Shown one piece after another: positions 2,036-58,841 of a stretch of 64,000 nt of DNA. Made by a program: the position numbers and the translations under genes. Origin of the DNA: Methyloligella halotolerans (GTDB lineage Bacteria; Pseudomonadota; Alphaproteobacteria; Rhizobiales; Methyloligellaceae); the NCBI RefSeq assembly GCF_001708935.1, contig NZ_MASI01000010.1, positions 1 through 64,000 on the forward strand. The letters run 5' to 3'. The notes below the pieces were generated by a model. It was not told where the DNA came from. It saw only the letters and a list, made by a program, of their open reading frames with translations, and searched no databases. Position 1 is the first letter of the stretch; the number at the start of each line of letters is the position of its first letter.

Positions 2036-3196
2036 ATGCATCGACTGAGCGACGGGCCACCTTCAGAGCGGGAAGGCGGAAGGAATAATGCCGCGGAGCC
2101 GGAGGACGCCGGCGCCGCGGGCGCGCCTCAGGAGCCGGAAGCGCCGCCGGTCAAATACTCCATGTCGCCAGGGCTCTCGGGCTTCCTCGGCTCGAACCAA
2201 ATCTCGCTCGCGATCTCCTCCTACCAGTCCGGCAAGTTCTATCTGCTCGGCCAGAACAAGGATGGCGGGCTGCTGGTGGACGAGCGGCTGTTCCGCAAGG
2301 CGATGGGAATTGCCGTGCCGGACAAGGACACGCTGCTGCTCGCGACGCTGTTCCAGATCATGACCTTCAAGAATGTGCTTGGGCCGGAGCAGGAGGTGAA
2401 CAACCTGTTCGATCACTGCTATGTGCCGCGGCAGATCCACGTCACCGGCGAGCTGGACGCCCACGATGTCGGGCAGCTTGCGGACGGGCGGATCGTGTTC
2501 GTCAACACGCTCTACAACTGTCTTGCCACGCCGTCGGAAACCCACAGCTTTACGCCGATATGGAAGCCGCCCTTTATCTCTAGAATCATGAAGGAAGACC
2601 GCTGCCATCTGAACGGGCTCGCCATGGAAGACGGTGTGCCGCGTTATGTGACTGCGGTCAGCAAGTCCGACACGATCGACGGGTGGCGAGACCGGCGCGC
2701 CGATGGCGGCATCGTTATCGACGTCCAGAAGAACGAAGTGGTGCTGGAGGGACTCTCCATGCCCCATTCGCCGCGGCTCTATAACGGCAAGCTCTGGCTG
2801 CTCAATTCCGGCACGGGCGAGCTCGGCTGGGTTGATGGGCTGGAGGACGGTAAGGTCGAATTCAAGCCCTTCGTGTTCTGTCCCGGCTTCGTGCGGGGGC
2901 TCGCTTTCCACGGCAACTACGCCTTCGTCGGCCTCTCCAAGCCGCGCTACGAACGGTTCGAAGGGCTGGCGCTGGACGATCGGTTACGAGAGGCAGATTC
3001 CGAACCGTGGTGCGGTGTGCAGGTGATCGATCTGAGCAGTGGGACGTGCGCCCACTGGTTCCGCATCGATGGAGCCATTGGGGAGCTTTACGACCTCGCC
3101 ATCGTGCGGGGCGTAATCCGGGGCATGTCCTTGAGCTTCGCCACCAACGAGATCATGGGGCTGATCACCCACGATCCTCTGACGGAAGCACTCTAG
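2036..3196 (+). CDS. TIGR03032 family protein (beta-propeller-like, unknown function)
   Basis: About 386 residues from the ATG at 2036 (MHRLSDG). The frame is also open from an ATG at 1952. The first 40 residues are charged and low in complexity. From [17 protein letters not shown] onward it matches what I know of the TIGR03032/DUF4915 family: [11 protein letters not shown] near the start, a [15 protein letters not shown] segment, [30 protein letters not shown] and the terminal FATNEIMGL. The repeated short beta segments suggest a propeller fold. Family members often sit near glycan or secretion genes, but nothing here gives a substrate. Its 3' end overlaps the convergent pyrophosphatase gene by four bases. 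Confidence 0.8.
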
Positions 3197-49544: not shown

Positions 49545-49567
49545 GCGCCAGCGCGCGCAATCAGAGT

Positions 49568-49613
49568 TGGTGACCCCGGCTGGATTCGAACCAGCGACCC
49601 TCAGATTAGGAAT
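49568..49613 (-). other. Left attachment site: duplicated 3' end of tRNA-Arg(CCT)
   Basis: On the minus strand these bases give CCTAATCTGAGGGTC, the T arm GGTTCGAATCC and the acceptor end GGGGTCA plus CCA. This is the anticodon loop to CCA part of a tRNA-Arg(CCT). No 5' half follows on the right (AT-rich sequence instead), and a tyrosine integrase gene starts 174 bases away. This is the classic attL layout of an element that targets a tRNA 3' end. The intact tRNA should stand at the other element end, beyond the window. Confidence 0.85.
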
Positions 49614-49786: not shown

Positions 49787-51004
49787 ATGGGTGATCGGCT
49801 GACACGAAATGCGCTGAAGAAGATGACGCCCGGAGACCTTCTTTGGGACGGCGAACTTAAGGGGTTCGGTGCGCGCCGTCAGAGGGAGACGATCACGTTC
49901 TGTCTGAAGTGCAGGGTCAGGGGGCGGCAACGTTGGTATTCGATCGGACGTCTTGGCAGTCCTTGGACATTGGAAAGCGCTCGGCGCGAAGCGCTGCGGC
50001 TGTTGCTCAGCATCGCCGATGGTGAGGAGCCCGTTAGCCGCAAGAGGGACAAGCGGCCAGTGACCGTGGAGGAAGGGATCGAGCAGTTCCTGGACGAGCA
50101 CGGACCGAAGCTGAAGCCAAGCACTCAGGCCGAGTATACGCGCCTTTGTCGGCTCAAAATCGTTCCGAAACTCGGAAAGCTCAAGCTCGACGAGGACATG
50201 CGGCGGGAAGTAGGTCGCATGCACAGCGGTATGGCGTCGACACCTCGTCAAGCCAACCTCGTCCTCATGGTGTTCTCCAGCTTCATAAGCTGGGCCGAGG
50301 CCAACGAGCTTCGCGAGGAGGGCAAGAACCCTTGCAGGCGCATCGCCAAGTATCGGGAGATGAAGCGAGAGCGCTATCTTTCTGGAGAGGAGCTCGGTCG
50401 CATAGGCAATGTTCTCGCGCGACGCGATGCAGCCGGTGAGGAGAGCCCCTTCTCCATCGCAGCTATCAGACTTCTGATCCTGACGGGTGCTCGCCTCGGT
50501 GAGATCCTCACCTTGAAGTGGTCCTACGTGGATGTGCCTCGGCGCCAGCTGCGGCTCCCGGATTCGAAGACCGGAGCAAAGGTCATCCGCTTGAACGATG
50601 CGGCGCTCACCCTCCTAGAGGCGGTTCCCAAACTGGCTGGTAACGCCTTTGTCATAGCTGGCGAGAAGAAGGGCAGCCACCTCGTAAATCTGCAAAAATC
50701 TTGGCGCCGAATTCGCCGGGAAGCGGACCTAGAAGACGTGCGGCTGCATGATCTGCGTCATTCCTATGCGAGCGTCGCAGCGGAACTTGGCGGTTCGTTG
50801 CCGATGATCGGCAAACTGCTGGGACACAAGCATTCTCAAACCACGGCGCGCTACACTCACCTGGCGGAAGATCCCATCGATTTTCTCAATGAACAGATCG
50901 GTGGGCGCATCGCTGCTGCGCTGTCATCGAACCTCGTGCCGCAAAAGTGCAACAGCCCCGAGGACGATCGGGACCCAACATGCGATCCGCTGCGTACAGA
51001 ATGA
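49787..51004 (+). CDS. int: Tyrosine site-specific integrase (phage/ICE type)
   Basis: A roughly 405-residue tyrosine recombinase from the ATG at 49787 (preceded by GAGGGTG). An N-terminal arm-binding domain (MGDRLTRNALKKMTPGD, LWDGELKGFGARRQ) is followed by a core-binding helical domain. The catalytic domain has the first Arg in TGARLGEILTLKW (about residue 236), HDLRHSYASVAAEL (about 321) and LGHKHSQTTARYTHL with the terminal Tyr. It would integrate and excise the element at the tRNA-Arg site. The 5' extension to 49700 is open but not family-like. Confidence 0.95.
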   Translation: MGDRLTRNALKKMTPGDLLWDGELKGFGARRQRETITFCLKCRVRGRQRWYSIGRLGSPWTLESARREALRLLLSIADGEEPVSRKRDKRPVTVEEGIEQFLDEHGPKLKPSTQAEYTRLCRLKIVPKLGKLKLDEDMRREVGRMHSGMASTPRQANLVLMVFSSFISWAEANELREEGKNPCRRIAKYREMKRERYLSGEELGRIGNVLARRDAAGEESPFSIAAIRLLILTGARLGEILTLKWSYVDVPRRQLRLPDSKTGAKVIRLNDAALTLLEAVPKLAGNAFVIAGEKKGSHLVNLQKSWRRIRREADLEDVRLHDLRHSYASVAAELGGSLPMIGKLLGHKHSQTTARYTHLAEDPIDFLNEQIGGRIAAALSSNLVPQKCNSPEDDRDPTCDPLRTE

Positions 51005-51141: not shown

Positions 51142-51444
51142 TCAGCGATGAACGCCGGGCCGGCGACCATCCTCTACGATATCCCCCTCATCGATTTTCC
51201 AGCCGTCGTTCTTCAGCGCCTTGAGGATGAGATAGCGGAGGGTGGATCGCGTCTTTGCGGCTTCGATGCGCATGGCCTGGGCGAGATAGTCGGGCACGTC
51301 GGTGCGGATGGTGACGGAGGGGCTGCGGGGTTTGGGCTTACGGTCAAGGGTGGGGACGCCTCTGGACTTGGCATAGGCGTCGATGGACTCCTCGTCAGCC
51401 TTGGGGAGGCCAAGCGATGAGAAGGTCGGCTTGGTATCGCTCAT
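51142..51444 (-). CDS. Ribbon-helix-helix partner of ParA
   Basis: A 100-residue protein. After an acidic N-terminus, SPSVTIRTDVPDYLAQAMRI gives the beta-strand and first helix of a ribbon-helix-helix domain, continued by KTRSTLRYLILKALKNDGWK. Its start codon overlaps the parA stop (ATGA at 51441-51444), so it is translated with the ATPase. This fits the second gene of a small type Ib partition pair, which binds the centromere and represses its own operon. The role is inferred from context and fold. Confidence 0.85.
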   Translation of the reverse strand: MSDTKPTFSSLGLPKADEESIDAYAKSRGVPTLDRKPKPRSPSVTIRTDVPDYLAQAMRIEAAKTRSTLRYLILKALKNDGWKIDEGDIVEDGRRPGVHR

Positions 51445-52151
51445 GCGGCTCTAGCTTTCGTTGGTTGGGACAAGACCTGCAGAACTTCGTCGACGATGGT
51501 GTCCAGCTCGGCGATGGCCTTCTTGACTGGTCCCCTTCCCTTGTCCGCCAGGTGCGGCGGCATGCCCGAGATGAAGATCTCCCGATAGGGAGCCCGGCGC
51601 ATCATCAAATGGGCGAAGCGCTTCAGGGCGGAGCCATCGAGCTCGGCAAGAGCGTGCCGTTGATAGAGCGGATTGAGGCAGTCGGCCTCGTTGACCAGAA
51701 GACGGTGACGGATCGACGAGCCGAAGCGCTGATTGAAGGCGTTGACCTCGCTCAACAGCTTGGCAGCCTCGCGCAGATCGGGCTCGGAGAGCTTCGCGGG
51801 CGTGACGACGAGATCGGAGGCGGCGATCGCTTTGATCATGGTCGCCTCGTATGCACCGGCAACGTCGATCAGGATGATGTCCGCTCCACTTTCCTTCGCA
51901 CTCGCCAGGCTCTGATTGAAGCTGTCGGGGACGGCCTCCAGGACGGTGATGCCGGTCAGCAAGCCGCCGTGCTGCCGATGCCAGCGATAAAGGGTCTGGT
52001 TCTGATCGAGGTCGAGGATCGCGACCCTCCCTTCTCTGCTGGCCAGGGCGCCGGCGATGGCGGCGCAGAAGGTCGACTTGCCGACACCTCCCTTGGAGGA
52101 AGCGAAAGTGATGACGCGTTGCGTGCTGTCCGGTCGGGTGCGGGATTTCAT
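51441..52151 (-). CDS. parA: ParA-type partition ATPase
   Basis: A 236-residue ATPase from the ATG at 52151. The deviant Walker A is SSKGGVGKST near residue 20, followed by ILDLDQNQTLYRWH and DIILIDVAGAYEATMIKAI (Walker B). It lacks the N-terminal DNA-binding domain of long ParA, as in type Ib systems. It would segregate the element in its circular replicating form. A 53-residue extension upstream (to 52310) is open but runs into the repeat region and is unlikely to be coding. Confidence 0.93.
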   Translation of the reverse strand: MKSRTRPDSTQRVITFASSKGGVGKSTFCAAIAGALASREGRVAILDLDQNQTLYRWHRQHGGLLTGITVLEAVPDSFNQSLASAKESGADIILIDVAGAYEATMIKAIAASDLVVTPAKLSEPDLREAAKLLSEVNAFNQRFGSSIRHRLLVNEADCLNPLYQRHALAELDGSALKRFAHLMMRRAPYREIFISGMPPHLADKGRGPVKKAIAELDTIVDEVLQVLSQPTKARAA

Positions 52152-52198
52152 GGAAGAATCATTTGCCGCGTGACCCGGCCGGTCAAGCAGACCTCCCG

Positions 52199-52229
52199 AA
52201 CACCCCTCCAGTTCGCCATGAGGGGTGTT
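52199..52229. promoter_or_regulatory. Inverted repeat upstream of parA
   Basis: AACACCCCT at 52199-52207 and AGGGGTGTT at 52221-52229 form a perfect nine-base inverted repeat around 13 bases. It lies 48-78 bases upstream of parA, between that gene and the 24-bp array. No T-run follows, so an operator is more likely than a terminator. Autoregulation by the RHH protein is a guess. Confidence 0.55.
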
Positions 52230-52232
52230 GCA

Positions 52233-52465
52233 CATATGGCGATGCGGAGAGACGGCCATGTGGAGAGATGCCAATGCGTCCATCCGGAAAGCCCCCTCAT
52301 CCGTCGGCATGGACTCCTACCCGTCCGGAGAGATGGATGCCTTCCCGTATGGAGGAAACGCCATACGGCAGGACGGAGACATGCACGCTTTTCCAGTCGG
52401 CGGGATGCACATTCGGACATATCGCCAGAAGGCCATGCCGACATATGGAAATGCGGTCGAGACGG
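52233..52465. repeat. Degenerate 24-bp direct repeat array (candidate centromere)
   Basis: Ten units share a core like C-A/G-T-N-Y-G-G-A/C. Their starts are 52233, 52257, 52281, 52301, 52322, 52346, 52370, 52394, 52418 and 52442; all but two of the steps (20 and 21) are exactly 24. Examples of the core are CATATGGCGA, CATGTGGAGA, CGTCCGGAGA and CATATGGAAA. The array occupies the space between parA and a divergent RHH gene, the usual place of a partition site (parC). Because 24 is a multiple of three, several reading frames stay open through it, but none looks like a protein. Confidence 0.7.
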
Positions 52466-52487
52466 AGACCCGCCTACCAGTCCACAT

Positions 52488-52519
52488 GTCGTTCCGTACA
52501 CTTGTCGTTCCGCACACTT
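52488..52519. repeat. Tandem 16-bp repeat
   Basis: GTCGTTCCGTACACTT and GTCGTTCCGCACACTT lie head to tail with a single difference. They end 36 bases before the ATG of the RHH gene at 52556, so they may be part of its promoter or operator. Confidence 0.6.
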
Positions 52520-52555
52520 GGAGACACGGAGAAGTCTCCGGACGGAGACCCAGCC

Positions 52556-52837
52556 ATGAGCCAATCTTCACGGCTATCCCAATTGCGCCGGCGCTTCCGC
52601 TTCGTCGCTGGAGAGAAGGGGCAGGGTCGACGCAGAGATTATCGTGGTGACCGGGTGCGCCTGAACTTGCGAGTAAGCGAAGGTCTTGGGCGTCAGCTGG
52701 ACGAATTGAAGCGTCTGTCCGGTACGGACAAGAACGTCTTCTGCGAACGCGCGATCGAGCAGGCCGTTCGCGACGCACTGGTTGCTGCCAGGAGTGAAAC
52801 GACGGAAGGAGGGACCCGTGCGGATCAAGATATCTAG
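52556..52837 (+). CDS. Ribbon-helix-helix-like small DNA-binding protein
   Basis: A 93-residue product from the ATG at 52556. A basic N-terminal third (SRLSQLRRRFRFVAGEKGQG) precedes RVRLNLRVSEGLGRQLDELK, a strand-helix pair like ribbon-helix-helix proteins, and a C-terminal helix (CERAIEQAVRDALVAA). The frame is also open through the repeat array upstream, which I reject as coding. Its stop lies 20 bases inside the next gene, so the two are probably coupled. Possible roles are element regulator or a second centromere-binding protein. Confidence 0.7.
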   Translation: MSQSSRLSQLRRRFRFVAGEKGQGRRRDYRGDRVRLNLRVSEGLGRQLDELKRLSGTDKNVFCERAIEQAVRDALVAARSETTEGGTRADQDI

Positions 52838-53939
52838 CGGCCTTACCCATTTGATGGTGGTCGGCGGGATTCTGATGAGCCTTGGATTGATCGCTGTCAG
52901 CGCGACCCTCAATTTCCGTATGGCATATCGGATGGCCGATAGTGAACTTGACGGGCTGATCTTCGGTAGCGGCGCTGCGCTGGCTGATGGGCTCAAGGCG
53001 ATGCTCGCCTTCTTCGCTTGGTCGGCCTGGCGCAAAGGCGAGTGGCTGGCGGTGACGGCAGGAGCCGTACTATTCGTCGTATGCAGCAGCTATTCGCTCA
53101 CGGCGGGCATCGGCTATGCGGCTCAACTCCGCGCTCACTCTGAAGCGGTACGCGTAAGCTCGGCACAAGCGCGGTCGGCCGTCATGGCAGAGATTACGAG
53201 ACTCGAAGCGCGCCAAGAGCAACTGGGTGTTCAGCGGAGCAAGCAGGAAATCTCCGCCGATATCCAGACCGTTTACGCGCGGGTTCTGGGCAAGACAACG
53301 GTCGGTAAATATTCGCAGAACTGCACCACGGGCGGAAATTGGTCGCGTCATTCCTGCGCTGAAGAGGCGGCGCTGCAACTTGAATTGACACGGGCGGAAG
53401 AGGCCGAAAAGATCGGGCAGAGATTAACGGAGATGCGCGCGGAGTTGAGCTTATTGGGGGCGTCTGGAGCAGAGGGTCGCTCCGACCCCCAACTCGTTGC
53501 ACTCAGCAATATCTCGAAGAGCGCCGGCTGGACCACTGACCAAGACAGTGTGCGTCTCTCCTTGTTGATCCTGGTGGGGAGCCTGTTCGAGCTGGGGAGC
53601 AGCTTGGGACTCTACGTGGCGACCGTTCCCTGGCGGAAGTCCGGCCCAGGCGAGGTGGGATCGTCACGCGAGATCGGCGCCGTGGAAGAGTTCGCGCTGG
53701 AGCGATTGGAGCCCAGACAAGGGGAAGGACTCAGCATCTCTGCTCTCTTCGGAGACTATCTGAGATGGGCGGCGGGAAGTGGCGCGGCTGCTCTGGCAGA
53801 GGCGGATTTTCGTGACCGCTTTCGAGAGCTAGCAACGGATTGCGGTTTGCCCACGCGCCGCAATCGGTCGCAACTCTTCTTCCCGAATGTCGGGCTGATC
53901 GAAACGGGAACGGCCGCCACAGATCGGGTCGCTGCCTAG
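52818..53939 (+). CDS. Membrane protein with coiled coil and cytosolic C-terminal domain, unknown
   Basis: A 373-residue protein from a GTG at 52818, after GGAAGGAGGG. Three hydrophobic segments occupy roughly residues 10-100 (VVGGILMSLGLIAVSATL, FGSGAALADGLKAMLAFFAW, VTAGAVLFVVCSSYSLTAG). A long Ala/Glu/Arg-rich coiled coil (about 105-225) contains a paired-cysteine insert (NCTTGGNWSRHSC). A fourth membrane helix (LSLLILVGSLFELGSSLGLY) and a soluble tail of about 95 residues follow; the tail looks helical and ends in LPTRRNRSQLFFPNVGLI. I do not recognise the family. The overlap with the RHH gene and the nearby origin suggest a backbone role, perhaps tethering or mating-related. Confidence 0.75.
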   Translation: MRIKISSGLTHLMVVGGILMSLGLIAVSATLNFRMAYRMADSELDGLIFGSGAALADGLKAMLAFFAWSAWRKGEWLAVTAGAVLFVVCSSYSLTAGIGYAAQLRAHSEAVRVSSAQARSAVMAEITRLEARQEQLGVQRSKQEISADIQTVYARVLGKTTVGKYSQNCTTGGNWSRHSCAEEAALQLELTRAEEAEKIGQRLTEMRAELSLLGASGAEGRSDPQLVALSNISKSAGWTTDQDSVRLSLLILVGSLFELGSSLGLYVATVPWRKSGPGEVGSSREIGAVEEFALERLEPRQGEGLSISALFGDYLRWAAGSGAAALAEADFRDRFRELATDCGLPTRRNRSQLFFPNVGLIETGTAATDRVAA

Positions 53940-54111: not shown

Positions 54112-54199
54112 GCCGGGGCGGTCTCTTCTTTCTCTAATAGTCTCTAGGAAGTCTCTTAGAGCGGGTAAGCGTCTGAACATTCGAAGGGTTTCGGAAGCC

Positions 54200-54283
54200 C
54201 TGTGGCGACGTTTCCCAAAACTGTGGCTCGGCTTCCGAGATATGTGCCCTCGCTTCCGAGATCTGCGACCCCGTTTCCCGGTA
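54200..54283 (+). repeat. Iteron cluster 1 (four tandem 21-bp repeats)
   Basis: Four direct repeats in exact 21-base register start at 54200, 54221, 54242 and 54263. The shared pattern is C/A-TGTGGC...G-TTCC-C/G-A. The first reads CTGTGGCGACGTTTCCCAAA before its last base. A degenerate extra copy may precede them at 54179. Confidence 0.85.
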
Positions 54284-54354
54284 TGCTGATGCGGCGAGCA
54301 GCGGACAATATTTCAATGGGATAGCGACCGGCTCGGCAGCTGGACGGCGAAGAG

Positions 54355-54417
54355 ATGTGGCGGTCGTTCCCGGATCTGTGCTGGCTGTTCCGAGGAATGT
54401 GGCGGCTGTTCCCGAGA
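54355..54417 (+). repeat. Iteron cluster 2 (three tandem 21-bp repeats)
   Basis: Three direct repeats at 54355, 54376 and 54397 match cluster 1: ATGTGGCGGTCGTTCCCGGA, then CTGTGCTGGCTGTTCCGAGG, then ATGTGGCGGCTGTTCCCGAG, each followed by one more base. The cluster starts 92 bases after the last copy of cluster 1. Confidence 0.85.
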
Positions 54418-54486
54418 CCGAACGCCTCGGTCATCCAGGCTCAAATCCATGTCGGTTGCGGCGACCACACAGATGGTTGCCCAATT

Positions 54487-54528
54487 ATGTGGCGACCGTT
54501 CCCAAATCTGTTGCCGCCGTTCCGGTGA
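54487..54528 (+). repeat. Iteron cluster 3 (two tandem 21-bp repeats)
   Basis: Two direct repeats at 54487 (ATGTGGCGACCGTTCCCAAA plus one base) and 54508 (CTGTTGCCGCCGTTCCGGTG plus one base), ending 20 bases before the rep start codon. At this position bound Rep could also repress its own gene. Confidence 0.85.
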
Positions 54529-54548
54529 TCAGATTACGATTCGGACAC

Positions 54549-55562
54549 ATGAATAACGCGCCTGCCTCCCGCGAGCTCTCCGACGCCGAGAAGAAGCGGC
54601 TCGAACGGGTGGGCAACAGGCGAGGGCGGAACCGACCGTCCAAGGTGCCCGCACGGCTTGCACGCACCAGCGCCTTCGCTCCGAAGCGCCGCGGTCTGAT
54701 CACCGATTCATCCTTCGAGCGTCTCTACATCGTGCGCGGTCATTCCGTGGTGCGGGTGAGCGGCCGCGAGCTCGGCTCCCAGCACAGGGATGCGCTCTAT
54801 GCCGTGTTCCGGCTGGGCCACGAGAGCGAGACGGTCAGGGATCCCTCCGCGACCCTGGGCTTGCGGAACTATATGAAGGTGGAGACCAGCTGGCGGGAGC
54901 TCCTCAAATGCATGGGGCTCACCCAGCATGTGAACAATGTTGCCGCCCTCCACTATACCTTCGAGGACATCAAGAAGGTGGTGGTGACGATCTATGAGGG
55001 GGACGAACAGCGCCTGCTGGAGAAGTTCCGCCAAGGCAAGCTGCCGAAGGATGGCGGCAAGATGGGCAACATGCTCCACGACGTGGAGTGGACGGGCCTC
55101 GGTCTCGACGACCGGGTCTGCGTCTATTACGGCGAGTGGAGTGCTGCCATGGTGGTGTCGGCGAAGCTGGTGAGCCTCAATGCCGACGTGCAGTTCGCCC
55201 TTGGCTCCGACTACGCAAAATCCTTCTGGCCCTACATCGACAGTTTCCAGAAGCACAGCTGGGTCGATGAAGACCGTCTGGCCGAGCTCGTGGGTCGGGA
55301 TCTCTGGGGGCCGCATGAGAGCGCGGAAACCCGTCGCGACTTCCGGAGCAAGTGTCGCAAAGCCCTCGACGACATGGTCAAGGCCGGTGGCTTGCGATCA
55401 TGGAGAGCCGAGATCAAAGGCGACGGCCGCCGTAAGTCCCGGCGTTATCATTATGAGCACGGACTTGATCCGCAGCTTGAGTTGCCAATCGCGCCGGAAA
55501 AGATCCTCGAGATGGAGGAGACAACTAAGGAGCGAACCGCAAAGGTAGCGGCCGCTCCTTAG
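54549..55562 (+). CDS. Iteron-type replication initiator (Rep/TrfA-like)
   Basis: A 337-residue protein from the ATG at 54549. A basic N-terminus (KKRLERVGNRRGRNRPSK) is followed by two domains reminiscent of the tandem winged helices of plasmid initiators such as TrfA. The first has VRVSGRELGSQHRDALYAVF and KVETSWRELLKCMGLTQHV; the second has MVVSAKLVSLNADVQFALGS, YAKSFWPYIDSFQKHSWVDE and FRSKCRKALDDMVKAGGL. The nine iterons and DnaA box directly upstream make the role convincing. The upstream open frame (from 54357) overlaps the iterons and is not coding. Confidence 0.88.
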   Translation: MNNAPASRELSDAEKKRLERVGNRRGRNRPSKVPARLARTSAFAPKRRGLITDSSFERLYIVRGHSVVRVSGRELGSQHRDALYAVFRLGHESETVRDPSATLGLRNYMKVETSWRELLKCMGLTQHVNNVAALHYTFEDIKKVVVTIYEGDEQRLLEKFRQGKLPKDGGKMGNMLHDVEWTGLGLDDRVCVYYGEWSAAMVVSAKLVSLNADVQFALGSDYAKSFWPYIDSFQKHSWVDEDRLAELVGRDLWGPHESAETRRDFRSKCRKALDDMVKAGGLRSWRAEIKGDGRRKSRRYHYEHGLDPQLELPIAPEKILEMEETTKERTAKVAAAP

Positions 55563-55572
55563 TTAATTGAGA

Positions 55573-56778
55573 TCAGAGATCCGTGACCCGCTGAGGTTCT
55601 GCCGAAGCAAGAGCTGCAGCTCGTACCGGTTTCGGCGGGTAGATCCAGATTGTGTTGATCTCCTGCTTTAACTTCTTCGCCTCGGCGCCAACGAGTTCCA
55701 CATGTCGGTCCCAGCCGCGGGTGAGTAAGGCACCAGCGGTCCCAAGATCCAAGCAAGTGACGTAGGCCTCTTGGTGGTAGGGCATGAGAGGCTCTCCCAG
55801 AAGGTCGGCCACTGCATTGTGACCGGCAAACGCCCCCATGCGGGTCGCGTGCTGGCAGGACATCAGCGCATAGTTGCCCTTGTCATCACAGGCTGCTTTT
55901 GCAGCATCGCCCGTAGCGTAGACACCTGGAACACCTTCAACGCGAAGCTCGCGGTCAACAAGCAAGCGCCCTAGATTGTCACGCTCACCGGGAACTTGCG
56001 CGGTCAGCGGTGCGGCGCGCATGCCTGCCGCCCAGATGACTGTCGAGCTCTCTATGCGCTCACCGCTGGTGAGGGTCGCTCCGCCGGCGTCGACCGAGGC
56101 AATGCCAACCCCCACACGGGCCTCGACACCAAGTTCGCGAAGCGCGTGCTCGATGATGGGGCGCGGACCTGGTCCCATATCAGGAGCCACGGCTTCGTTG
56201 CGGTCTACGATGACGACTTGGATGTCCGCATCGTCGCCGAACAATTGCCGAAGGCGAGCCGGCATTTCGGTTGCGACTTCAAGCCCCGTAAAGCCGGCGC
56301 CCGCAACGACGATGGTGTTACGCCGCTTCGACTCCGGTTGATCGGCCAAAGCTTTAAGGTGACGGTCGAGCGCAACAGCCTCGTCGAGCTGGTCGACGCT
56401 GAACGTGTGTTCGGCCACTCCCGGAATGTCAGGCCGAAACAGCCGGCTGCCCGTGGCGATAATTAGCCGATCGTAGTTCAGGGAGCGCTCCTCGCCGGAT
56501 GGCGATTGCACCAGGACGGTTCGCGCCACTGTATCGATGCCCTTGGCGCTGCCTTCCACATACGTGACATCGATGGCGCTGAGGACGTCGTGCAGAGGCG
56601 CCGCCATCACTTCGGGATTCGGTTCGTATAGTCGTGGGCGGACGGCAAGGTGCGGAACGGGCGAGATGAGCACGATCTCAAGCTCATCAGGCTTGACGCC
56701 CTTTATGTCGCGCAGGCGTGCGGAAGAAAGTGCCGCGTACATGCCGGCAAACCCGGCACCGATGATTGCGATTCGCAT
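55573..56778 (-). CDS. NAD(P)/FAD-dependent oxidoreductase (NDH-2-like)
   Basis: A 401-residue pyridine nucleotide-disulfide-fold flavoprotein. The FAD site is AIIGAGFAGMYAALSSARL and the NAD site VVAGAGFTGLEVATEMPARL. The second FAD motif is VYATGDAAKAACDDKGNY, followed by SCQHATRMGAFAGHNAV. There is no redox CxxC. This layout resembles type II NADH dehydrogenases and related carotenoid- or sulfide-quinone enzymes. Membrane association is not obvious. It is cargo on the element, downstream of a hydrolase and an AraC regulator on the same strand. Confidence 0.88.
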   Translation of the reverse strand: MRIAIIGAGFAGMYAALSSARLRDIKGVKPDELEIVLISPVPHLAVRPRLYEPNPEVMAAPLHDVLSAIDVTYVEGSAKGIDTVARTVLVQSPSGEERSLNYDRLIIATGSRLFRPDIPGVAEHTFSVDQLDEAVALDRHLKALADQPESKRRNTIVVAGAGFTGLEVATEMPARLRQLFGDDADIQVVIVDRNEAVAPDMGPGPRPIIEHALRELGVEARVGVGIASVDAGGATLTSGERIESSTVIWAAGMRAAPLTAQVPGERDNLGRLLVDRELRVEGVPGVYATGDAAKAACDDKGNYALMSCQHATRMGAFAGHNAVADLLGEPLMPYHQEAYVTCLDLGTAGALLTRGWDRHVELVGAEAKKLKQEINTIWIYPPKPVRAAALASAEPQRVTDL

Positions 56779-56852
56779 GAGAGAAGTTCCTCTAGAATGC
56801 TGGCTAACTGAGGCGGTGGTCGCCGCCGGGACTGGGGTGTGACGAGGGGCCG

Positions 56853-57683
56853 TCAGGCTCTGACGAACTCAAGCAGGTCGCTATTGATGGACTGGGCATG
56901 GGTGGTGGCCATGCCGTGCGGGAAACCTTGGTAGATCTTCAAGGTGCGGTTTCTCAGGAGGGTCTCAGCCACCGGAGCCGAGGCGACGAGTGGGACGATC
57001 TGGTCGTCGTCGCCATGCATCAGCAGTGTCGGTGCCTCGATGAGTTTCAGGTCGTCCGTAAAGTCCGTTTCGGAGAAGGCCTTGATTCCCAGATAGTGGG
57101 CGTTGGCTGCGCCGGTCATCGCTTGCCGCCACCAGTTCCAAATAACCGGTTGTGACCGCTCAGTTCCCGGACGATTGAAGCCGTAGAAGGGACCGCTCGC
57201 GAAATCGAGGTAGAAACTCGATCGGTTTGCGGCCAGCTCCTTGCGGAGGCCATTGAAGACTTCGATAGGCAGGCCCTCGGGGTTCGCCGGTGTCTTGAGC
57301 ATGAGAGGGGGTACTGCGCCAATGAGCACGAGTTTCGCCACGCGATCTTTTCCATGGCGGGCGACATAACGGGTCGCCTCACCGCCACCCGTCGAATGGC
57401 CGATGTGAATAGCATCACGAAGATCCAGGTGGTCGACCACAGCTGCGACGTCCGTCGCGTAGTGGTCCATGTCGTGGCCATCGCTGACTTGGCTGGACCG
57501 GCCGTGACCGCGACGGTCGTGCGCGACCACACGGTAGCCCTTCTCAAGAAAGAAGAGCATCTGGTTATCCCAGTCGTCCGCGCTCAGTGGCCAACCATGG
57601 TGAAATACGATTGGCTGAGCTGTCTTAGGGCCCCAATCTTTGTAAAAGATCTGGACGCCATCTTGAGTGTTGATTGTTGGCAT
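56853..57683 (-). CDS. Alpha/beta hydrolase (non-haem chloroperoxidase/arylesterase family)
   Basis: A 276-residue cytoplasmic hydrolase. FHHGWPLSADDWDNQMLFF is the oxyanion-loop segment of this family. The nucleophile is in HIGHSTGGGEATRYVARHG, the acid in LMHGDDDQIVPL and the histidine in YQGFPHGMATTHA. AAGGAG lies upstream of the ATG at 57683. A 54-residue upstream extension is open but lacks support. Family members act as esterases, lactonases or perhydrolases; the substrate is unknown. Probably regulated by the AraC gene upstream. Confidence 0.92.
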   Translation of the reverse strand: MPTINTQDGVQIFYKDWGPKTAQPIVFHHGWPLSADDWDNQMLFFLEKGYRVVAHDRRGHGRSSQVSDGHDMDHYATDVAAVVDHLDLRDAIHIGHSTGGGEATRYVARHGKDRVAKLVLIGAVPPLMLKTPANPEGLPIEVFNGLRKELAANRSSFYLDFASGPFYGFNRPGTERSQPVIWNWWRQAMTGAANAHYLGIKAFSETDFTDDLKLIEAPTLLMHGDDDQIVPLVASAPVAETLLRNRTLKIYQGFPHGMATTHAQSINSDLLEFVRA

Positions 57684-57944
57684 GTTGCCGCTCCTTTCGA
57701 TCGAGCATCGGGAGGTTTCAGTGCTTCCTCCCAACACCGATGCGGCGGCGACAGCTGTAGCCATTGCATATGCGAACACGTTGGAGAGGATTTCTCGCCA
57801 AGCCTCTCCGAGAAATTGATTGATCAGGTGTTTCGCGTTCATCAACTGACTCCGTCGATCATCGGCGTGGGTACAGTCGATGATCTAGCGAGGCCCGTTT
57901 GACGCTGCGCCAGCGGAATTGCTCGGTTGAAGCGGAATTGCGGC

Positions 57945-58841
57945 CTATGAAGCGCCGCGTCGCCAGTCGGTCGGTGAAACACCCGTTAGCCGCTTGAATG
58001 CGGCCGCGAAAGCCGTCTGGGAGCCATAGCCCAGTTCCAGTGCAATCGAGAGCACGGACATCGATGGATCACGAAGCATAGCCATGGCTCGCTCCAACCG
58101 GTGTTGTCGTAGCCAGGCATGGGGCGACAATCCGGTACTCGCCTTGAAGGCACGACAGAAATGAAAGCGGGAAAGTCTGGCTTCCGCGGCTAAGGCGGCA
58201 AGAGAAACATCCGTCTCGCTCTCTGACCTCAGGCGGTCGATGGAGCGGCGAAGCACGTGTGGCGGCAGGCCTCCCGAGTGCAGGTGGGAAACCTCTGGAA
58301 TGCCGGTGTGTGCGGACAGGACGCGTGTTGCCAAAAGCTCCGTCAGTTGCTGACGAAACAGAGAATCCAGCGCTGCGCTTCCGTCGAGGGCCTCAGTGGC
58401 AGTGGCAAGCAGCCGTGAGGTGATCGGATCAGGATGGCCCGTTCTTTCCAGAAGCAGAGCTTGAGCGGCTTTATCCGCCTCGGTCGCAATACGAGTGAGA
58501 GTCTCCTGGGGAAGGTAGAGCTGCACAACGTCGACATTACCCGATATGTCCCACCGAGCACTCGACCCGGCGGGGATTATCGTCACAGCCCCCGGCCGAG
58601 CCATACCCGATGATGTGTGTTTGCCCGATCGCCGTTCCAAACGTTGCGATGTACCGATATACGTCATGACCACGTGATCGATCATCGGCTCTACGACATC
58701 GTGGAGCTCTCCGTGGTTCCAGCGTGCAATCGACCCGGATGACGGATCGATACCTGAAGCAATGCGAAGAGGAGCGGTTTTGAGAACCCGTGCCATTTCC
58801 TGATCTGCAGGACGGCGATCGCCTGACTCGTGGTCATCCAC
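57945..58841 (-). CDS. AraC family transcriptional regulator
   Basis: A 298-residue regulator with a cupin-like N-terminal sensor part and a C-terminal AraC domain. The two helix-turn-helix units are SLAALAAEARLSRFHFCRAF and VLSIALELGYGSQTAFAAAF, with GLSPHAWLRQHRLERAMAML between them. It precedes the hydrolase gene by 261 bases on the same strand and likely controls it. The intergenic stretch holds no gene. Confidence 0.92.
   Translation of the reverse strand: MDDHESGDRRPADQEMARVLKTAPLRIASGIDPSSGSIARWNHGELHDVVEPMIDHVVMTYIGTSQRLERRSGKHTSSGMARPGAVTIIPAGSSARWDISGNVDVVQLYLPQETLTRIATEADKAAQALLLERTGHPDPITSRLLATATEALDGSAALDSLFRQQLTELLATRVLSAHTGIPEVSHLHSGGLPPHVLRRSIDRLRSESETDVSLAALAAEARLSRFHFCRAFKASTGLSPHAWLRQHRLERAMAMLRDPSMSVLSIALELGYGSQTAFAAAFKRLTGVSPTDWRRGAS

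Follow-up and report, generated by a model that had tools for sequence, protein, structure and literature searches.

The locus analysed here raises the question of what a run of degenerate repeats upstream of a parA-type gene is for, and which of the proteins encoded around it would bind it. A first-pass annotation of this DNA had described ten units of 24 bp lying between a ParA/ribbon-helix-helix (RHH) gene pair and a second RHH gene, and had proposed that they form a centromere in a possibly undescribed partition layout. The window, meaning the whole stretch of DNA analysed, comprises bases 1-64,000 of an 87,204-bp contig (C10) in the draft genome of the alphaproteobacterium Methyloligella halotolerans (3.19 Mb in 26 contigs). 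The features discussed below are collected in Table 1.

Table 1. Features of the partition locus and its surroundings (window coordinates)
Feature	Position	Strand	Remarks
tRNA-Arg(CCU) 3' fragment	49567-49613	-	47 bp; proposed attachment site, from identity to an intact tRNA-Arg
Tyrosine integrase	49787-51004	+	family and homology searches
RHH1	51142-51444	-	100 aa; predicted ribbon-helix-helix protein, proposed centromere-binding protein
parA	51441-52151	-	ParF-like Walker ATPase of 236 aa, no N-terminal DNA-binding domain
Sigma-70-like promoter match	52158-52186	-	TTGACC-17-AATGAT, directly upstream of parA; consensus match only
Perfect inverted repeat	52199-52229		AACACCCCTC-N11-GAGGGGTGTT, in the interval between array and parA; read directly from the sequence
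Octamer array	52228-52557		39 slots of 8 bp (best path); box AYGGANAN in either orientation; proposed centromere (parS) and operator
RHH2	52556-52837	+	small RHH-like protein, the second of the locus; divergent from parA and not constantly linked to the module
MEMB	52782-53939	+	hydrophobic stretches by eye; overlaps the end of RHH2; start codon unsure
Iteron-like 21-bp repeats	54150-54530		upstream of the initiator, overlapping its upstream frame; z 5.6 at lag 21
Putative plasmid replication initiator	54549-55562	+	relatives in 19 alphaproteobacterial plasmid records

The repeat unit upstream of parA

The repeat unit upstream of parA is an octamer, because the strongest autocorrelation lags are all multiples of 8, phase-wise base composition peaks at period 8 (in each of the three stretches tested) and a hidden-Markov model fits best at pitch 8. 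In the autocorrelation of positions 52200-52480, z reached 7.4 at lag 24, 5.8 at lag 16, 5.3 at lag 40, 4.1 at lags 8 and 32, 3.8 at lag 48 and 3.4 at lag 64. Among 1000 dinucleotide shuffles scored at lags 3-79 the maximum was 4.8, with 99% and 95% levels of 3.8 and 3.3; lags 24, 16 and 40 therefore lie above every shuffle and lags 8, 32 and 48 reach the 99% level. The hidden-Markov fit, which admits slots in either orientation, gained 104.6 nats at pitch 8 vs 41, 24, 31 and 52 nats at pitches 6, 7, 9 and 10, respectively. A comb statistic evaluated for pitches 5-12 gave 11.2 at pitch 8, a value reached by none of 200 shuffles (maximum 4.3), and when the complete contig was scanned at pitches 7, 8, 10 and 11 the array scored 11.7 and everything outside it at most 4.1, a value obtained at pitch 10 (the best outside score at pitch 8 was 3.3). 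The repeats of the first-pass annotation are thus real, its lag of 24 exceeding the shuffle maximum, but a fundamental repeat of 24 bp was rejected by the lags, the composition and the model fit alike: 24 bp corresponds to three octamer slots, and instead of ten units the best path holds 39. Lag 24 is the strongest single lag in the window and in loci L003 and L004, but not in L005 or L006.

On the + strand the box reads A-Y-G-G-A-n-A-n, with G at position 3 at a frequency of 0.95 in the hidden-Markov fit. Slots occur in both orientations, and the phase slips by 1 bp at two places (52292-52300 and 52453-52461); further slots flanking the array on both sides are weaker and doubtful. The inverted repeat that had been noticed beside the array is indeed perfect, with arms of 10 bp (52199-52208 and 52220-52229). 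An open reading frame on the + strand (52225-52650) overlaps RHH2, and a protein repeat of eight residues was considered as a reading there. A DNA search of a plasmid collection at E 1e-5 returned no match.

ParA, its small partner and the type Ib arrangement

The pairing of parA with a small gene on the same strand stands as first annotated: the start of RHH1 overlaps the parA stop, the two genes sharing four bases. Counted from the chosen start at 52151, ParA has 236 residues with the Walker A motif close to the N-terminus. A ten-row alignment (the window protein and nine relatives) matched ParA 5u1g (E 9.4e-24) and ParF 4dzz (E 7e-23) in the PDB, and both structures cover nearly the whole profile.

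For RHH1, no RHH family match was obtained in Pfam with any of ten family members, nor in NCBIfam and PHROGs with the window protein, and a Foldseek search with its AlphaFold model gave nothing significant. The family alignment matched the RHH structures 7e4j (E 0.012) and 9kkd (E 0.04) weakly at its core; these matches do not rise above unrelated noise hits, TFIIE (E 0.024) among them. The model contains two helices of high confidence (residues 52-64 and 69-79) and a tail of lower confidence. Based on the weak matches and the model, an RHH fold, which in type Ib partners goes with a flexible N-terminal tail, is predicted for RHH1. The family also shares a conserved C-terminal DGR motif.

Type Ib ParA proteins measure 192-308 aa and have no N-terminal DNA-binding domain (PMC3235114); the window ParA agrees in size and domain content, the 100-aa RHH1 lies within the 46-131 aa of the small partner encoded together with such ParA proteins (several of its relatives exceed 131 aa), and short repeats, which would act as the centromere, are seen upstream of the par operon. 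The layout suspected to be undescribed turned out to be of this type, as in plasmid TP228.

The parFGH system of TP228 is alike in its ParF-like ParA, in the small RHH protein of the same operon and in the box-and-spacer array upstream of it. Spacers in parH of TP228 are 4 bp long, which gives a pitch of 8 bp. The two systems differ in their box letters, in the DGR motif, which belongs to the RHH1 family, and in the window array's own size of 39 slots over 330 bp. The heptad parS of the delta-omega system of pSM19035 resembles the window in its contiguous repeats of mixed orientation and in arrays that overlap promoters, each repeat there taking up one RHH dimer, but its pitch is 7 bp with 7-10 repeats per site (PMC9499535). 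The module of p2META1 of Methylorubrum extorquens (L033) shares with the window ParA, an RHH gene, the initiator family and contiguous short repeats upstream of parA; its pitch, however, is 7 bp (score 10.8, 0/200 shuffles as high). Plasmid pAU20f of Aureimonas (L032) likewise encodes a ParA, together with an initiator that belongs to the window's family, but it has no lattice by the comb test (90/200 shuffles as high) and, by eye, its small protein resembles another RHH-like branch.

The lattice in relatives

Three sets of loci were compared. The first was drawn from 297 sampled genomes of the order and comprised the nine best loci (L034-L042, ParA 38-45% identical) and a tenth, L043 (37%). 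Pitch 8 was found with none of 200 shuffles as high in L034, L035, L036, L037, L038 and L040 and more weakly in L042 (5/200); the best pitch was 6 in L039 (4/200) and 9 in L041 (1/200, some 330 bp upstream) and L043 (0/200).

The second set consisted of 54 loci with short flanks from samples of the order and the class, in 2 of which ParA was not found. Among the 28 loci of the order that were scored, 11 had a strong lattice, 1 a weak one and 16 none that was significant; seven of the strong loci had pitch 8 (six close relatives of the first set and the distant L021) and the rest pitches of 9, 5, 11 and 5. The 24 scored loci of the class gave 9 strong, 5 weak and 10 non-significant results, with strong pitches of 9, 6, 11, 8, 11, 7, 7, 10 and 12; two distant loci of the class had pitch 8, L076 strong and L071 weak. 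Since L021 and L076 are strong at this pitch, it occurs also outside the close clade, and other branches have other pitches. Strong lattices of another pitch upstream of ParA were observed at 7 bp (L033, L079, L081), 11 bp (L075, L078) and 12 bp (L087).

For the third set, genome contigs were scanned with the ParA alignment (a scan with the single sequence found no relative) and the best 80 of at least 350 candidates encoding a relative were kept. Seven of these loci are contigs of the first set, and the sets are therefore not independent. A call was strong when pitch 8 exceeded the highest of 40 shuffles by one unit or more; L123, where no ParA frame was found, was left unscored. Among the close loci of these best 80 (L089-L122), pitch 8 was strong in 23 of 34, weak in four (L105, L109, L110, L117) and not found in seven, with nothing significant in L098, L099 (where the stretch upstream of ParA is short), L104 and L115, pitch 11 in L112 and L113, and pitch 12 in L122. 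The distant loci of the same 80 (L124-L168) showed significant pitch 8 in 0/45; strong calls fell at pitch 9 in 22, at 11 in three, at 6 in three and at 5 in one, with 16 weak or not significant, and pitches 6, 9 and 12 may reflect codon periodicity, which is lost in the shuffles. An RHH gene adjoins or overlaps the parA end in all 34 close loci from the best 80, as detected with a profile of ten members (the window and L034-L042); the third set includes the contigs of seven of these members. The comparison of relatives for conserved cores, which had been proposed as a check, recovered a common pitch in these 23 of 34 loci but different box letters.

In a ParA tree in which several long branches meet and the bootstrap is not settled, all 24 strong pitch-8 rows (the 23 and the window) fall within a single clade of 36 rows (support 99/99), together with nine rows without a strong pitch, two of pitch 11 and one of pitch 12; the window lies in a 10-row group that is entirely of pitch 8 (support 100/94). 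The pitch-8 label changes five times on this tree vs 20.8 times in shuffles (0/500 as low).

Two observations concern individual loci. In L151, ACCGGT recurs by eye about every 18 bp upstream of parA beside a different RHH-like partner, and a similar signal is present in other Rhodobacteraceae-type loci. L123 encodes RHH1 and an initiator of the window's family (E 1e-170), besides a weak match to an integrase, with octamer-like repeats by eye; its parA is not readable in one frame. A literature search of titles and abstract openings, with subscription papers mostly outside its reach, returned no description of an 8-bp lattice in this clade.

Box letters and protein similarity

In the relatives the pitch is constant and the box letters vary. 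Hidden-Markov fits for 28 relatives and the window gave, besides the AYGGA of the window, a GCAAATG-like box (for example in L091, L100, L103, L111 and L116), a TGTNCA box (L093, L094) and a CCGTTCG box (L107, L114, L119, L121). Of the 29 fits, the 7 whose likelihood gain did not exceed 40 were dropped, which left 22 loci, 18 of them non-redundant. Box similarity correlated with similarity of the RHH beta strand, the RHH helices and ParA at r 0.41, 0.52 and 0.59, respectively, over the 22 loci and at r 0.45, 0.53 and 0.63 over the 18 (Mantel p 0.0002 for the beta strand in the latter). Partial correlations with the box gave p 0.0008 for ParA, 0.057 for the helices and 0.27 for the beta strand with 18 loci, and 0.001, 0.027 and 0.37 with 22. 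Coevolution of beta strand and box was not taken as proof of binding, because the plain correlation is significant and the partial one is not. As judged from these comparisons, the boxes travel with the partition module, and the beta strand is not singled out.

It can be hypothesized, tentatively and with slightly more doubt than confidence, that the centromere of this clade is set by pitch and not by letters: an 8-bp lattice set by the packing of RHH dimers would be kept while its boxes are repeatedly replaced, giving new partition specificities, and hence compatibility between elements, with the same architecture. Other branches would each keep a spacing of their own, as with the 7-bp pitch of p2META1, L079 and L081 and the 11-bp pitch of L075 and L078.

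A probably integrated element with a putative initiator

The module is probably located in the chromosome, on an element that probably integrated at tRNA-Arg. The 47-bp fragment of Table 1 recurs unchanged within an intact tRNA-Arg on another contig (C11:51343), and this duplication of the tRNA-Arg(CCU) 3' end is of the attachment type. Assuming that C10 and C11 are adjacent, the element probably extends from C10:49614 to the end of that contig and continues in C11. The DNA of C11 to the right of its tRNA-Arg is syntenic with that to the right of tRNA-Arg in a related genome (G233), and C10 20-30 kb maps onto 626-635 kb of the latter; the left flank (C10:40000-49700) and pieces of the element found no match in its 690-705 kb. 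The same genome has two tRNA-Arg calls about 4 kb apart (C1:696168 and 700137). Beyond the window, C10 carries genes that by eye resemble those of nitrate and nitrite metabolism. Upstream of the module, L093, L094 and L095 carry an integrase of the same family as that of the window; L089, L104 and L123 have a weaker or more distant one.

The product of the gene at 54549-55562 is likely a replication initiator, as suggested by its position. Eighteen of its 19 plasmid relatives are labelled hypothetical protein and one has no feature; they come from plasmids of Roseomonas, Methylorubrum, Methylobacterium, Aureimonas and Skermanella, all below 60% identity. Searches of Pfam, NCBIfam and PHROGs at the limits applied gave no match to this family, a profile search of the PDB was likewise without result (best E 0.067) and the structure model (mean pLDDT 45.5) was too poor for use. 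Among 35 relatives from the best 80 of at least 350, a rep gene turned up within the fetched stretch in 10, of the RepA_C type (PF04796) in L089, L091, L093, L094, L095, L098, L107, L109 and L122 and of the window type solely in L123. Downstream of the initiator (55573-58841), genes for a pyridine-nucleotide oxidoreductase, an alpha/beta hydrolase and an AraC-type regulator are possible cargo.

Because the module resides in the chromosome, partition would be idle unless the element excises, and the whole could be a relic, an element no longer mobile whose partition genes have no use, a reading to which the degenerate boxes also lend themselves. This seems unlikely, given that the reading frames of ParA, RHH1, the integrase and the initiator are open and that the lattice has merely two 1-bp phase slips over 330 bp.

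Other possible roles of the array

The second RHH gene that had been placed on the far side of the array does exist as an RHH-like frame, with a weak match to Pfam RHH_1 (E 0.012, 15.9 bits, cut-off 20.5), but it is not a constant part of the layout. The last slots of the array (one at 52542-52549) reach the RHH2 start codon (ATG at 52556), and the RHH2 promoter would therefore sit in or near the array. RHH2, alone or together with RHH1, could then bind the array, whose main role would be that of an operator working both ways, towards parA and towards RHH2-MEMB. Against this rather improbable role, a phmmer search (E 1e-4) of 35 relatives from the best 80 of at least 350 found an RHH2 homolog in L089 only, some 2.7 kb from its array, compared with the strong lattice in most of the close loci of that set. 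By eye, an RHH2-like reading adjoins MEMB in L107 and L119, away from the array, and the phmmer count is therefore a lower bound. MEMB, for which no family match was found, was detected by the same search of these 35 in L089, L107, L112 and L119; in L107 and L119 there is a tRNA gene (tRNA-Gly and tRNA-His, respectively) at a distance of a few hundred bases. L089 also has a second RHH1-like gene divergent from RHH2 (2156-2497 and 2606-3016), kilobases from the array. Together, RHH2 and MEMB form a gene pair (52556-53939).

Still less probable is a transfer enhancer or an oriT-linked regulatory site of the VirC1/VirC2 style in place of a centromere. VirC1 is the best Pfam match of ParA, above its cut-off (52.3 vs 24 bits; other ParA-type families pass as well), a relaxase at C11:32745-33104 is possibly on the same element, and the partition proteins of plasmid NAH7 reportedly stimulate transfer (PMC12421886). 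However, the best solved structures for the ParA profile are those of ParA and ParF cited above, NCBIfam gives 97.3 bits for ParA_partition (cut-off 180) and 51.8 bits for the VirC1 equivalog (cut-off 313), both below their cut-offs, and the module accompanies a rep gene in those 10 of 35 relatives.

That the octamers are iterons of the initiator, with which they share a neighbourhood, is highly improbable, given that the initiator has 21-bp repeats of its own and that the 8-bp lattice also occurs with ParA-RHH1 beside RepA_C-type rep genes, even if the strong pitch-11 signal of L112 appears by eye to consist of units of about 22 bp, possibly iterons.

A proposed centromere for RHH1

Altogether, the locus is very probably a plasmid partition module that resembles type Ib and is carried, along with a putative initiator, by an integrated mobile element; RHH1 dimers, one per octamer, would coat the array as both centromere and operator. 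A centromere bound by the small RHH protein, as first proposed, is the reading that best fits the position of the array, the ParA family, the overlapping RHH gene and the conservation among relatives. In type Ib systems the partner proteins are repressors of their operon and bind to sites that lie upstream of it (PMC5016525, PMC3235114). In pSM19035 one dimer occupies each 7-bp repeat, and full activation of ParA takes four or more contiguous repeats (PMC9499535). By analogy with pSM19035, RHH1, encoded with ParA, may pack side by side at 8-bp steps along some 330 bp; the resulting nucleoprotein filament would be the partition complex, which would recruit ParA-ATP on the nucleoid. RHH1 would also repress the adjoining parA promoter, and partition would come into play when the element is excised and replicating.

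Taken by itself, the system of the window is of an ordinary kind; what stands out is the constant pitch and changing letters across its relatives. Among these relatives, putative centromeres of a single spacing come with four or more box sequences, a natural series through which it becomes testable how RHH partition proteins read DNA, what spacing contributes vs sequence, and how partition incompatibility is avoided. The series also suggests a group of integrated elements, mostly in Hyphomicrobiales, that carry replication and partition genes together.
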